The translations under genes and the position numbers were made by a program. Below, in pieces: positions 3,484 to 13,961 of a DNA stretch of 64,000 nt. Location of the stretch: NCBI RefSeq assembly GCF_009762325.1, contig NZ_CP034348.1, positions 874,501-938,500 on the forward strand, written 5' to 3'. Every line of letters begins with the position of its first letter. The stretch's first letter is position 1. Origin of the DNA: Roseovarius faecimaris. GTDB lineage: Bacteria; Pseudomonadota; Alphaproteobacteria; Rhodobacterales; Rhodobacteraceae. A model generated the notes under the pieces. The model was not told where the DNA came from, searched no databases, and saw only the letters and a list, made by a program, of their open reading frames with translations.

Positions 3484-3560
3484 TGGCGATCCCGGAAGGA
3501 CTCGAACCCTCAGCCTGCTGATTAGAAGTCAGCTGCTCTATCCAGTTGAGCTACGGGACC
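3484..3560 (-). tRNA. tRNA-Arg(TCT)
   Basis: 77 nt on the minus strand including an encoded CCA. The acceptor stem is GGTCCCG paired with CGGGATC (one G-U pair), discriminator G, then CCA. The D arm starts TAGCTC, the anticodon loop is CTTCTAA with anticodon TCT, and the T arm is GAGGG-TTCGAGT-CCTTC. TCT reads the Arg codons AGA/AGG, which are rare in this GC-rich genome. It lies between the exbB-tonB operon and truA, all on the minus strand. Confidence 0.95.
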
Positions 3561-9418: not shown

Positions 9419-10612
9419 TCAGGGCGCGTCAAGCCCGGCGCGCAGCGGCGCCAGCAGGTCCCCGCAGACAAGCCGTGACAAAAGCGCCGGAGCGGGCGGG
9501 ATACGCGACAGCGGGGCAAGAAGCCGGTCGCGCAACGCAGGCAATACCCGGCTCTCGGACTGGTAAAGCGGGGTGAAGACCGCGCTCATCAGCTGATAGG
9601 CCCACAGATGCCGCTTCCGGCTGCGATGATACCGGCTCAGCGCCGCTGCCAGGTCCGCCTCGTTCCGCAGCGCCTCGGCCAGCGCCCAGCCATCCAGCAG
9701 CGCCATGTTGGCCCCTTGCCCCAGTTGCGGGCTGGCGCGGTGCGCGGCGTCACCGATGTGAACAAGGCCCCTCTGCACCGGATCGCGCAGGCTGCCGTGG
9801 CTGTAGAACGCGGGCGTCATCTCGGAATGCGCACGCACGCCCTCGATATAAGGCGCGGCCTCGGGCCAGAGCCTTGTCGCCGCCTCCCGCCACGCCTCGA
9901 TGGGTGCGGTGCGCCAATCGGTCAGCTCCTCCGGCGTGAGCGACCAGAACACCGCGGCCTTGCGCGCCCCGCCACCCGGCAGACAGCCGATCGGCAGCAC
10001 CCCGACCATGCGCCGTGCCGCCTCGTAGCGCTGCGAAAGCTGGTGATCGGGCAGGGGGCCGGCCTCGGGCCAGTCCACCACGCCCCAGATCGCACCGAAG
10101 CGCAGGGCGCGAGGCTTCAGCGGTGAGAGGGCAGAGCCCGCTCCGCTTGCGTCTATGACCAGATCGAAGCGGGGGCTCTCGCGCCCATCCGCAAAGAGCA
10201 GCCTGCGTTGCGGCGCGGCGCTGACGCCCGTCACCTCATGCGCGGGCACAACCTCGGCCCCGGCCTGCCGGGCCGCCTCATGCACCGCATAAAACAGCGC
10301 GGCACGGTGCAGGGCGAGGCCATGGCGCCCGGGGCCGGGGCCGTATTTGACATCGAGGATGGGCAGCCGGATGCCCTGCGCATGGCCCAGCATATGCGTC
10401 ACCCTTTGGCCCAGCCCGTCGGCACGCTCCAGCGCCCCGATCCGCGCCAGCACCGCCTGACCCACGGGCTGAATGACAAGGCCGGACCCCACCGGACGGG
10501 GGCTGTCGAACTGGTCATAGACCACCACCTCGTGCCCCGCCCGGGCCAGCGCCGCCGCCACGGCCAGCCCGCCAATGCCCGCCCCCGCAATGCCGATGGA
10601 AAGCCTGCTCAT
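9419..10612 (-). CDS. FAD-dependent aromatic-ring-type monooxygenase
   Basis: 397 aa. N-terminal Rossmann motif GAGIGGLAVAAALARAGHEV with Asp at the end of the second strand (VYDQF), and the second FAD motif LVHIGDAAHRASPQLGQGAN near residue 290. This is the PHBH-fold group A flavoprotein layout used by UbiH, salicylate and 6-hydroxynicotinate hydroxylases. The substrate cannot be decided from sequence. It is transcribed leftward, away from ileS, with a 427-bp divergent intergenic region between them. Confidence 0.88.
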   Translation of the reverse strand: MSRLSIGIAGAGIGGLAVAAALARAGHEVVVYDQFDSPRPVGSGLVIQPVGQAVLARIGALERADGLGQRVTHMLGHAQGIRLPILDVKYGPGPGRHGLALHRAALFYAVHEAARQAGAEVVPAHEVTGVSAAPQRRLLFADGRESPRFDLVIDASGAGSALSPLKPRALRFGAIWGVVDWPEAGPLPDHQLSQRYEAARRMVGVLPIGCLPGGGARKAAVFWSLTPEELTDWRTAPIEAWREAATRLWPEAAPYIEGVRAHSEMTPAFYSHGSLRDPVQRGLVHIGDAAHRASPQLGQGANMALLDGWALAEALRNEADLAAALSRYHRSRKRHLWAYQLMSAVFTPLYQSESRVLPALRDRLLAPLSRIPPAPALLSRLVCGDLLAPLRAGLDAP

Positions 10613-10864
10613 GCGTGTTCAAGGCCCCTTGCTTTTGCCGCACCCTAGAGCGCGGGCGACGGACGGGGCAAGGCCCGTTGAGCGGCACTGCCCGGGCCTG
10701 CGACGATGCGCTCCACCGCCACCCTCTCCGCGCCGTGCAGGGCCACAAGGTCCACCCCTTCCCTGGCGCCGAAGCGGCGAGGCGGTACGGGCCTTGCGCC
10801 GCGTGCCGTCAATCCGCCTCACCGGCCCGTGTCACTTTGCTCCGATCCCTGCGCGTCGCCCCTC

Positions 10865-10893
10865 TGGACGCCGCCCCCTGTCCTGCCTATAAC
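10865..10893 (+). promoter_or_regulatory. Candidate ileS promoter, GC-rich discriminator
   Basis: TGGACG (10865-10870), a 17-base spacer and TATAAC (10888-10893), followed by GCCCCCC and then the A of the leader-peptide ATG at 10901. The TATAAC-GCCCCCC arrangement closely resembles the rpsL (TATACG-CCCCCC) and rplO (TATACG-CCCCC) promoters. A start at the first purine after the C tract would place +1 on the leader ATG. GC-rich discriminators are typical of stringently controlled translation genes. Confidence 0.5.
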
Positions 10894-10900
10894 GCCCCCC

Positions 10901-10951
10901 ATGATGATCCGCACACGCATCATTATTCGAATTATATGCCCGGCGCTCTGA
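10901..10951 (+). CDS. Putative ileS leader peptide, Ile-rich, probably leaderless
   Basis: Sixteen codons encode MMIRTRIIIRIICPAL and end in TGA. Six residues are Ile, five of them within positions 7-12, using ATC, ATT and even ATA in a genome that strongly prefers ATC. It ends 88 bases before ileS and begins right at the predicted transcription start, so it may be read without a ribosome-binding site, as described for the trp leader peptide of Sinorhizobium. Downstream sequence can fold: CCCGGCGCTC (10938-10947) with GAGCCGCCGGG (10960-10970), and GGCGCTTGG with CCACGCC beyond it. Stalling at Ile codons when charged tRNA-Ile is low would change this folding. No U-run terminator is visible, so the read-out may be translational or Rho-dependent. 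A 4-codon shift of the start (second ATG) is possible. Confidence 0.6.
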   Translation: MMIRTRIIIRIICPAL

Positions 10952-11039
10952 CCCAATCGAGCCGCCGGGATGAAGGCGCTTGGAATGCCACGCCGCCCCC
11001 TCACCAGATTGCAGAAGACCTATCCGAAGGACGCCACCC

Positions 11040-13961
11040 ATGTGCGCCGAGACGACCGAAACACACGATTACCGCGACACCCTGAACCTGCCCGAGACCG
11101 ATTTTCCGATGCGTGCGGGCCTGCCCAAACGCGAGCCGGAATGGCTGTCGCGCTGGAACGACATGCGCATCTATACCCGCCTGCGTGCCAAGGCCGAGGC
11201 GGCGGAGCGCCCGCCCTTCACCCTGCATGACGGCCCGCCCTACGCCAACGGTCATCTGCATATCGGCCACGCGCTCAACAAGATCCTCAAGGATATGGTG
11301 GTCCGCTCGCAGCAGATGATGGGCCGCGATGCGCGCTATATCCCCGGCTGGGATTGCCACGGTCTGCCCATCGAATGGAAGATCGAAGAGCAATATCGCG
11401 CCAAGGGCCGCAACAAGGACGACGTGCCGATCATCGACTTCCGCCAGGAATGCCGCAAATTCGCCGAGGGCTGGATCGACATCCAGCGCGACGAGTTCAA
11501 ACGCCTCGGCATCACCGGCAAATGGTCCAAGCCCTATCTGACGATGGATTTCCGCGCCGAGCGGATCATCGCGGAGGAGTTCCAGAAATTCCTGATGACC
11601 GGCACTTTGTACCAGGGCTCCAAGCCGGTCATGTGGTCGCCGATCGAGAAAACCGCCCTGGCCGAGGCCGAGGTGGAATATCACGACAAGGAAAGCTTTA
11701 CCATCTGGGTGAAGTTCCGCGTCGCCACGCCCGGCGATCTGGAAGGCGCGAATGTGGTCATCTGGACCACCACACCTTGGACCATCCCGTCGAACAAGGC
11801 GGTCGTCTATGGCGACAGCTTCGATTACGGCCTGTACGAAGTCACCGGCACGCCGGATGAATGCTGGGCCAATGTGGGCGACCGTTTCATCCTGGCTGAC
11901 AAACTGGCCGGCGATGTGATGGCCCGCGCCCGGCTGGAAGACGGCCAGTGGACCCGCCTGCGCGGTGTCAGTGCCGAAGAACTATCGGGCCTTTCGCTGG
12001 CCCACCCCCTCGCCGGGGCCGAAGGCGCGAACGGCGAATGGGATGACCTGCGTGATTTCCGCGCCGCCGATTTCGTGACCGATGAGGAAGGCACCGGTTT
12101 CGTCCATTGCGCCCCGTCCCACGGGATGGAGGAATATGAACTTTACCGTGATCTGGGCATGCTGGAACAGGTCATCACCTATAACGTGATGGACGATGGC
12201 AGTTTCCGCGCCGATCTGCCCTTCTTTGGTGGCAAATACATCCTCAGCCGCAAGGGCGGCGAAGGCGACGCCAACAAGGCGGTCATCGACAAACTGGTCG
12301 AGGTGGGCGGCCTGCTGGCACGCGGCAAGATCAAACACTCCTATCCGCATAGCTGGCGCTCCAAGGCGCCGGTGATCTATCGCAACACGCCGCAATGGTT
12401 CGCCGCCGTGGACCGGCCAGTGGGCGACGGGCAGGACACCTATGGCACCACGATCCGCGAACGCGCACTGCGGTCCATCGACGAGCTGGTGACATGGACA
12501 CCGCAGGCCGGGCGCAACCGGCTCTATTCGATGATCGAGGCGCGGCCCGACTGGGTGCTGTCGCGGCAACGCGCCTGGGGCGTGCCGCTGACCTGTTTCA
12601 CCAGACGCGGCGCTTTGCCGACGGACCCGGATTACCTCCTGCGCGATGAAAAGGTCAACGCGCGTATCCTTGAGGCGTTCGAGGCCGAAGGGGCTGACGC
12701 ATGGTACAAAGACGGCGCGAAAGAGCGGTTCCTCGGGAATGACTACAACCCGGATGAGTGGGAACAGGTGTTCGATATCCTCGATGTCTGGTTCGATTCT
12801 GGCTCGACCCATGCCTTTGTGCTGCGCGACCGCGAGGATGGCTCCGATGACGGGCTGGCCGATCTTTACCTTGAAGGCACCGACCAGCATCGCGGCTGGT
12901 TCCACTCCTCCATGCTGCAGGCCTGCGGCACCATCGGCCACGCGCCTTACCGCGGCGTGCTGACCCACGGGTTCACGCTCGACGAGAAGGGCAACAAGAT
13001 GTCCAAATCGCTGGGCAACACCGTGGCGCCCGAGGAAGTGGTCAAGCAATATGGCGCGGATATCCTGCGGCTCTGGGTGGCGCAGTCGGATTACACGGTC
13101 GACCTGCGGATCGGGCCGGAAATCCTGAAAGGCGTGGCCGATGGCTATCGCCGCCTGCGCAACACGATGCGCTTCATGCTGGGCGCGCTCGCGCATGTCT
13201 CGGAGGCCGACCGCGTGGCGCCCGCCGACATGCCCGAGCTGGAGCAGTGGGTGCTGCACCGGCTGGCCGAGCTGGATCACAAGGTGCGCACGGGCTATGC
13301 CGCCTATGATTTTCAGGGCGTGTTCCAGGCGCTGTTCAACTTCTGCACCGTGGAGCTTTCGGCCTTCTACTTCGATATCCGCAAGGATGCGCTCTATTGC
13401 GATGGCGACACCGCGCGCCGCCGGGCCGCGCGCACCGTGCTCGATATCCTGTTCCACCGGCTGACCACCTGGCTTGCCCCGGTGCTGGTCTTCACCATGG
13501 AAGAGGTCTGGCTCTCGCGCTACCCGGGCGACGACGCCTCGGTGCATCTGGAGGATTTCCCCGACACGCCCGCCGAGTGGCTGAACGAGCCGCTGGCGGC
13601 GAAATGGGCGCAGGTGCGCCGCGCGCGCCGGGCGGTGACGGCGGCCCTCGAGGTGCAGCGGACCGACAAGGTGATCGGTGCCTCGCTGGAGGCGGCTCCG
13701 GTGGTGCATGTGCGCGAGAAAGAGGTGCTGGAGCTGCTGAAATCGGTGGATTTCGCTGATATCTGCATCACCTCGGACATCTCGCTGACCGGCGATCCGG
13801 CCCCGGCCGAGGCGTTCCGCCTGCCCGAGGTGGACGGTGTGACCGTGGTGTTCGAGCGCGCCCCGGGCGAGAAATGCCAGCGCTGCTGGAAGATCCTGCC
13901 CGATGTGGGGCGGCATGCGCATGCGGGCGTCTGCGGGCGGTGTTCCGAGGCGCTGGGCTGA
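11040..13961 (+). CDS. ileS: Isoleucyl-tRNA synthetase
   Basis: 973 aa from ATG 11040, which has GAAGGA 9-15 bases upstream; a longer frame from 10980 adds unlikely residues. Class I signatures are present: HIGH (74-77, in GHLHIGHALN) and KMSKS (653-657). The editing domain includes WTTTPWTIPSN. The C-terminal zinc site has CxxC pairs at 946/949 and 965/968, as in the bacterial type that is naturally mupirocin-sensitive. It attaches Ile to tRNA-Ile in the cytoplasm. Likely controlled by the Ile-rich leader peptide upstream. Confidence 0.97.
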   Translation: MCAETTETHDYRDTLNLPETDFPMRAGLPKREPEWLSRWNDMRIYTRLRAKAEAAERPPFTLHDGPPYANGHLHIGHALNKILKDMVVRSQQMMGRDARYIPGWDCHGLPIEWKIEEQYRAKGRNKDDVPIIDFRQECRKFAEGWIDIQRDEFKRLGITGKWSKPYLTMDFRAERIIAEEFQKFLMTGTLYQGSKPVMWSPIEKTALAEAEVEYHDKESFTIWVKFRVATPGDLEGANVVIWTTTPWTIPSNKAVVYGDSFDYGLYEVTGTPDECWANVGDRFILADKLAGDVMARARLEDGQWTRLRGVSAEELSGLSLAHPLAGAEGANGEWDDLRDFRAADFVTDEEGTGFVHCAPSHGMEEYELYRDLGMLEQVITYNVMDDGSFRADLPFFGGKYILSRKGGEGDANKAVIDKLVEVGGLLARGKIKHSYPHSWRSKAPVIYRNTPQWFAAVDRPVGDGQDTYGTTIRERALRSIDELVTWTPQAGRNRLYSMIEARPDWVLSRQRAWGVPLTCFTRRGALPTDPDYLLRDEKVNARILEAFEAEGADAWYKDGAKERFLGNDYNPDEWEQVFDILDVWFDSGSTHAFVLRDREDGSDDGLADLYLEGTDQHRGWFHSSMLQACGTIGHAPYRGVLTHGFTLDEKGNKMSKSLGNTVAPEEVVKQYGADILRLWVAQSDYTVDLRIGPEILKGVADGYRRLRNTMRFMLGALAHVSEADRVAPADMPELEQWVLHRLAELDHKVRTGYAAYDFQGVFQALFNFCTVELSAFYFDIRKDALYCDGDTARRRAARTVLDILFHRLTTWLAPVLVFTMEEVWLSRYPGDDASVHLEDFPDTPAEWLNEPLAAKWAQVRRARRAVTAALEVQRTDKVIGASLEAAPVVHVREKEVLELLKSVDFADICITSDISLTGDPAPAEAFRLPEVDGVTVVFERAPGEKCQRCWKILPDVGRHAHAGVCGRCSEALG

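Follow-up and report, generated by a model that had tools for sequence, protein, structure and literature searches.

In the ilv and trp attenuators of Escherichia coli, a run of control codons is combined with mutually exclusive hairpins ending in a U-run, and in other phyla T-box elements are found before ileS, the gene for isoleucyl-tRNA synthetase (IleRS). Some leaders have also been described in Alphaproteobacteria. The trp attenuator of Sinorhizobium meliloti has a leaderless leader gene, trpL, which encodes the peptide peTrpL and also yields a small RNA (sRNA), rnTrpL (PMC10117765). In Caulobacter crescentus, Ile and Val codons precede a Rho-independent terminator in the ilvBN leader, and a ribosome profiling study of this bacterium names an ileS leader coding sequence (CDS), CCNA_03934, which was used as a negative control (PMC4117421). 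On leader-peptide control of aminoacyl-tRNA synthetase genes in Alphaproteobacteria, the passages available from the literature searched give only the named ileS and trpS leader CDSs of Caulobacter. Here an element upstream of ileS in Roseovarius faecimaris is described, which lies in a stretch of 64,000 nucleotides (nt) of contig NZ_CP034348.1 (positions 874,501 to 938,500, forward strand; hereafter the window). An earlier note, made from the sequence of the window, had proposed a leaderless, Ile-rich leader peptide that attenuates ileS according to Ile-tRNA charging. As judged from sequence, this observation is confirmed and extends further than first reported; it is conservation that settles the matter. 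No description of the element was found in the literature searched, the reach of which does not extend to subscription papers on attenuators.

Leader frame upstream of ileS

The leader region of the window is arranged as follows.

10864..10870, + strand: putative -35 region CTGGACG (TGGACG at 10865 in the earlier note); CTGGAC, CTTTAC or CTTG-- at the aligned position in most relatives printed
10888..10893, + strand: putative -10 box TATAAC; in 80 sequences an in-frame leader start follows a TATA-like box after 6-10 nt
10901..10951, + strand: leaderless leader open reading frame (ORF) MMIRTRIIIRIICPAL, stop TGA; frame conserved before ileS
10919..10927, + strand: ATC ATT ATT, a run of three Ile codons preceding the core; Ile at 196/240 such codons in 80 loci
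10928..10934, + strand: core CGAATTA (codons CGA and ATT and the first base of the next); CGA 78/80, ATT 79/80, next A 79/80; recurs class-wide
10935..10938, + strand: 4-nt spacer TATG; constant in 80 loci, and a spacer of 4 dominates class-wide
10939..10969, + strand: stem 1, CCCGGCGCTC / GAGCCGCCGGG, whose loop holds the TGA stop; 5/10 pairs changed on both sides
10975..10994, + strand: stem 2, GGCGCTTGG / CCACGCC; 3/6 pairs changed on both sides in the window and 80 relatives
11026..11031, + strand: likely Shine-Dalgarno sequence of ileS, GAAGGA; AAGGAC often stands upstream of the start in the alignment printed
11040..13961, + strand: ileS, isoleucyl-tRNA synthetase; TIGR00392 over cut-off

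The frame of 16 codons given in the earlier note, six of them for Ile and with 88 nt from its stop to the ileS ATG at 11040, proves exact (ATG ATG ATC CGC ACA CGC ATC ATT ATT CGA ATT ATA TGC CCG GCG CTC TGA). TGGACG (10865-10870) is followed after 17 nt by TATAAC (10888-10893), and this after 7 nt by the leader ATG. A consensus scanner finds no sigma-70-like promoter in 10600-11200, so that the claim of a promoter rests on the conserved box and its spacing. No intrinsic terminator with a U-run is detected by scanner before ileS in the same range, as the note had already remarked of the U-run. The reading frame of the leader is open further upstream, to an ATG at 10706, and the single-sequence fold of the leader region is not better than shuffles (z -0.64). 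With neither promoter nor terminator by scanners and with an unremarkable fold, the window by itself would leave the question unsettled.

The near relatives are 80 ileS loci (numbered with L below), mostly of Rhodobacterales, which are the best 80 of 593 ileS relatives confirmed by protein; codons and boxes were counted in 80 sequences, consisting of the window and 79 of these loci (L023, missed by the pattern used, is left out). The Ile-rich frame, far from being missing in close relatives, stands close before ileS in 70/80 loci, those without it by this test being L019, L040, L041, L044, L047, L048, L052, L060, L061 and L064. In all 80 sequences a start codon in frame follows the TATA-like box, at 7 nt in 43, 6 nt in 25 and 8-10 nt in 12, and it is ATG throughout except for GTG in L008. 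The core is present in one place in 80/80 loci when small variants are allowed, as the strict heptamer CGAATTA in 77/80 (L068, L071 and L073 depart from it), and strictly as CGAATTA-N4-CCCGG in 76/80. In the ileS genes of the same loci, CGA accounts for 1.8% of the Arg codons and ATT for 11% of the Ile codons, whereas both are nearly fixed in the leaders, so that CGA-AUU-A is held as RNA.

The three codons before the core look as if they were held as amino acids, which is the usual mark of control codons. The 196 Ile codons at these positions comprise 94 ATT, 90 ATC and 12 ATA. The earlier expectation of conserved Ile codons with varying third bases is borne out at the two codons nearest the core, where variability is highest in the third base (1.27 and 1.35 bits vs 0.40-0.69), but not at the farthest of the three. 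By its sequence this is a short leader in which the regulated amino acid has its codons, as is expected of an attenuator. The Ile run itself, which the note took as the key feature, turns out to be too narrow a description, the key being one in-frame AUU in a near-invariant CGAAUUA at a fixed distance from a hairpin; 10/38 of the ileS leaders collected across the class have no other Ile before the core AUU.

Transcription start

In Methylorubrum extorquens DM4, differential RNA sequencing (dRNA-seq) gives TTCCCC-17-TAGAAGcgctcca A as the promoter of ileS, at a distance of 150 nt upstream (PMC9320726). The promoter string is found in 6/111 genomes of genus g222, and from the occurrence of this published Methylorubrum string we infer that g222 is Methylobacterium. 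The genus also carries RF01867, for which Caulobacter was considered and then dropped; the Fae family (TIGR03126), sought as a sign of Methylobacterium, has no match in the 40 genomes searched. In these six genomes the bases run TAGAAGCGCTCCATG and the ATG opens a leader, for instance MFGLILVPPRITGPASA, the A of which is 149-151 nt before ileS and exactly 150 nt in four. The printed promoter string, read literally, starts one base later, and it therefore agrees with the leader AUG within 1 nt. A query stretch of 271 nt is matched in 41/41 g222 genomes, and the core and the in-frame start are present in 20/20 of the g222 loci read. Taken with the conserved spacing of the -10 box, the published start site in this relative indicates that the transcript probably starts at the leader AUG. 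Leaderless translation, which had been proposed from the position of the promoter in the window, is upheld by the spacing between box and start, by this start site, and by the reading frame across the class, as described below.

Hairpins following the core

Covariation was assessed in an alignment of 81 rows (80 distinct), consisting of the window and 80 relatives, where 10939-10948 pair with 10959-10969 in stem 1. Over both stems, 97.1% of cells are paired and 8/16 pairs are changed on both sides; in the shuffle control 2.6 pairs are expected by chance, and 0/500 shuffles reach the observed value. One pair of stem 2 swaps C-G for U-A in 27/78 cells. Both stems drawn in the earlier note, one over the last codons and a second before the ileS ribosome site, are thus backed by covariation. 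The RNA following the hairpin is C-rich in 80 relatives (C/G 1.53 vs 0.90 upstream), although class-wide the effect is weaker (1.29 and 1.23 vs 1.01 and 1.02); the C-rich stretch would suit Rho, which is a hint only. No downstream partner for CGAAUUA was seen when looked for by eye only.

These two stems might also be arranged as in classical attenuation, where stem 1, stem 2 and a 2:3 antiterminator would be mutually exclusive and stem 2 would end transcription. Both stems are supported, the 3' arm of stem 1 can partly pair with the 5' arm of stem 2, and in L089, which is outside the family, inspection by eye shows a similar second stem. However, the covariation of this antiterminator pairing is no better than that of shuffles, of which 132/500 reach the observed value, the window has no U-run terminator in the range scanned, and the support for stem 2 is confined to the alignment of near relatives. 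Attenuation in this classical sense is therefore quite unlikely.

Distribution of the element in Alphaproteobacteria

The pattern CGAATTA-N4-CCCGG-N(8-30)-YCGGG occurs in 75/289 genomes of the class, and the same pattern read backward, used as a control, occurs in 2. In a draw from the phylum, split by hand into 51 genomes of Alphaproteobacteria and 149 others, it is present in 17/51 and 1/149, respectively. An RNA model, R1, trained on 81 near relatives, is too narrow for the class and matches 12/289 genomes; its second match in the genome of the window (E 0.64) has no ileS behind it. When spacers of 0-10 nt are allowed, a spacer of 4 is found at 93 distinct places, whereas the ten other lengths together account for 33 and none of them for more than 8, the backward control giving 22 matches over all eleven lengths as counted by hand. 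Two of the 33 places with other spacers represent the gene-end form of the element described below.

Outside the genome of the window, 92 distinct sites were collected, and at each the ATG at leaderless distance behind the best -10 match, scored out of 6, was examined for its frame. Among the 37 sites where the -10 match is at least 4/6, 36 have the ATG in the frame of CGA and one shows a tie with another frame. The ATG is also in frame at all 24 sites with a match of 3/6, at 10 sites with 2/6 and at the 3 sites with 1/6, and 15 of the 92 sites have no such ATG. Chance or an ordinary upstream ORF is ruled out by conservation, frame and spacing. A T-box or another known RNA is ruled out as well, since no Rfam 15 family scores over gathering at the element in the window and six other loci; for the T-box there is no match at gathering over the window, nor up to E 5 over 10850-11060.

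A further set of 106 ileS genes across the class had been judged to lack a match, and in 100 upstream stretches that were read, the full motif is present in 11, a close variant in 2, a looser one in 5 and CGAATTA only in 9. In six of these nine (L201, L206, L210, L213, L230 and L251), the gene preceding ileS ends with CGA-ATT-A in its own frame. This gene-end form occurs in three family-level groups (L201/L206, L210/L213/L230 and L251), and the gene, scanned in L210 only, is there a riboflavin kinase. A clean hairpin follows with a spacer of 4 in L251 and of 5 in L210 and L213. The partial spread and the gene-end forms indicate that the element is common, not universal, and that it keeps its frame without a leaderless start.

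Genes behind the element

The 92 sites are followed by ileS within 1.6 kb (38), by a small ACT-like protein (39), by an ACT gene and then ileS (3), or by neither (12). A link to Ile genes, as the note's reading of the leader implied, is thereby supported, with ileS or the ACT-like protein behind most sites and once a gene like that of threonine ammonia-lyase. In L152, a ribF-like frame lies between the element and ileS. The ACT-like protein, of about 100 amino acids, is encoded at 42/92 sites (e.g. L104, L119 and L123). The 13 members scanned have no Pfam or NCBIfam match at E 0.001, weak matches being those to ACT_5 (0.017), ACT_AHAS_ss (0.028) and the acetolactate synthase small subunit (0.011); in PDB the best match is a xylanase (0.29) and the second is the acetolactate synthase small subunit 2fgc (0.6). 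The protein is probably an ACT domain weakly resembling the acetolactate synthase small subunit. Among the 12 sites with neither target, the next gene in L127 has threonine ammonia-lyase as its best match (E 1e-101, short of the curated cut-off), five sites precede an AAA_33 protein and three a protein without family, and L147, L148 and L168 look like chance matches. In L094 the ACT gene is followed by biosynthetic threonine ammonia-lyase IlvA, over cut-off, and in L098 by citramalate synthase (a fragment, below cut-off). Isoleucine synthesis has two entry enzymes, namely threonine ammonia-lyase and citramalate synthase.

The share of Ile among leader residues before the core is 11.4% at ileS sites (38 leaders), 9.8% at ACT sites (40 leaders) and 3.6% at other sites (9 leaders), and in the fetched ileS genes Ile accounts for 4.1% of codons. 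The stop codon lies inside the hairpin at 33/38 of the ileS-only sites, and the leader frame runs on beyond the hairpin at 22/42 ACT sites. Since the first possible ACT start is 30-50 nt past the hairpin in 28/42 sites, passing ribosomes could cover it. The leader frame of L123 and L117, which differs from that of the ACT gene, continues across the likely start of that gene; this suggests that the two are coupled in translation or interfere with each other.

Some other arrangements were noted around the ACT sites. hisZ lies behind one of them. A common frame lies behind the element in ten loci (L095, L101, L104, L124, L126, L153, L154, L158, L171 and L173), and in L126, the only one scanned, it encodes a DUF4743-NUDIX protein adjoining the ACT gene. 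Tandem copies of the element, 182-200 nt apart, precede one ACT gene in L159, L161 and L164 (genomes G260, G033 and G162), and a third copy in each of these genomes (L160, L162 and L163) precedes an AAA_33-type gene. Elsewhere in the window, the Rfam L2-Alphaproteobacteria ribosomal protein leader RF03142 (46070-46136, +, 54.7 bits) and a tRNA-Arg with anticodon TCT (3484-3560, -) are found.

Proposed mechanism

The element before ileS may best be understood as a ribosome-operated gauge of Ile-tRNA charging, to which we give a probability of roughly 60%. The transcript would begin at the leader AUG and be translated without a ribosome-binding site. With AUU in the A-site and CGA in the P-site, the hairpin would begin at the mouth of the ribosome, at +12 when counted from the first base in the P-site. 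The ribosome footprint reaches about this far, +12 being the ribosome entrance. When charged tRNA-Ile is scarce, the ribosome would wait at AUU and the hairpin would stay folded; when it is plentiful, the ribosome would enter and melt the hairpin, often terminating inside it. In the relatives of the window, up to three extra Ile codons stand ahead of the core. Expression of the downstream gene would be favoured while the ribosome waits and the hairpin is folded, and candidate routes for the signal are keeping Rho off, RNA stability and freeing of the start site. The stalling, the response to charging and its direction are thus what we infer about the element, whose anatomy, conservation, exact spacing and hairpin covariation are described above, together with its linkage to Ile genes and its leaderless start. 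In a more specific form, the one AUU in CGA-AUU-A would set the front edge of the ribosome against the hairpin, and the element would be a portable module (leaderless mini-genes, the ribF end, tandem copies) of a regulon comprising ileS, the acetohydroxyacid synthase (AHAS)-like ACT protein, threonine ammonia-lyase and citramalate synthase; we consider this form tentative, at somewhat below even odds.

Several observations weigh against the gauge. The nucleotide fixity of CGA, AUU and the next A exceeds what codon sensing alone needs, and the antiterminator pairing lacks covariation above shuffles. At a -10 match of 2/6, the ATG is in another frame at 3 sites (3/92), 73/100 of the further ileS upstream regions carry none of the patterns tried, and the lowest-energy fold gives no simple hairpin at the expected place in L201, L206 and L230. 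An AAA_33 kinase-like gene behind 5 sites (L143, L160, L162, L163 and L175; L162 scanned) and a protein without family match behind 3 (L107-L109; L108 scanned) have no evident role in Ile metabolism.

The excess of nucleotide fixity might be explained if CGAAUUA were a nuclease processing site, where the translating ribosome gates the cut and RNA stability is the output. RNase E prefers RN|WUU, a motif looser than the heptamer. GAAUU next to a hairpin fits this preference, and the string is kept as nucleotides beyond its codons and adjoins a hairpin that covaries; such a site could coexist with Ile sensing. A nuclease site alone, however, needs no reading frame (36 + 1 tie of 37), no exact 4-nt spacer and no link to Ile genes, and the motif of RNase E is, as said, looser than the heptamer, so this explanation is unlikely. 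A fixed RNA string with a hairpin before ileS would also be expected if IleRS or another protein bound the leader RNA to repress its own synthesis, but the reading frame is conserved, the element also stands before genes other than ileS, and no tRNA-Ile-like fold was noticed by eye; we regard this as decidedly improbable. In TnaC-like leaders, translation is arrested by the nascent peptide, and the recurrent peptide pattern R-I-x-x-P-A/V, with Pro encoded by CCG in 80/80 sequences, might act in this manner. However, Arg, Ile and Pro are each held to a single codon (CGA, AUU and CCG), and the residue after Ile varies (I, T, S, M, N, K or R); with the Pro and Ala codons lying in the hairpin arm, an RNA constraint explains these fixed codons, and peptide arrest is highly improbable.

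If true, the gauge of Ile-tRNA charging, with one near-invariant codon and a fixed distance from ribosome to hairpin, would show directly, and in a form open to test, that ribosome geometry can serve as a sensor. It would also give leaderless translation a role, and it predicts an isoleucine regulon that includes the ACT-like protein family.

Comparison with known systems

T-box elements regulate ileS in response to tRNA charging, as proposed here, but they bind tRNA directly without translation. CCNA_03934 of C. crescentus is likewise annotated as an ileS leader CDS; the passages that deal with it give no motif, conservation or mechanism. The trpL leader of S. meliloti resembles the ileS leader in being a leaderless leader ORF of an alphaproteobacterium, but it belongs to a tryptophan attenuator with an sRNA, whereas here the amino acid would be Ile, no terminator is seen, the codon context is near-invariant and the spacing to the hairpin is fixed. 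In the ilv and trp attenuators of E. coli, a ribosome that pauses at control codons alters how the RNA folds, as would be the case here, although their run of control codons and exclusive hairpins with a U-run would be replaced in the alphaproteobacterial element by a single AUU at a set distance from a hairpin.

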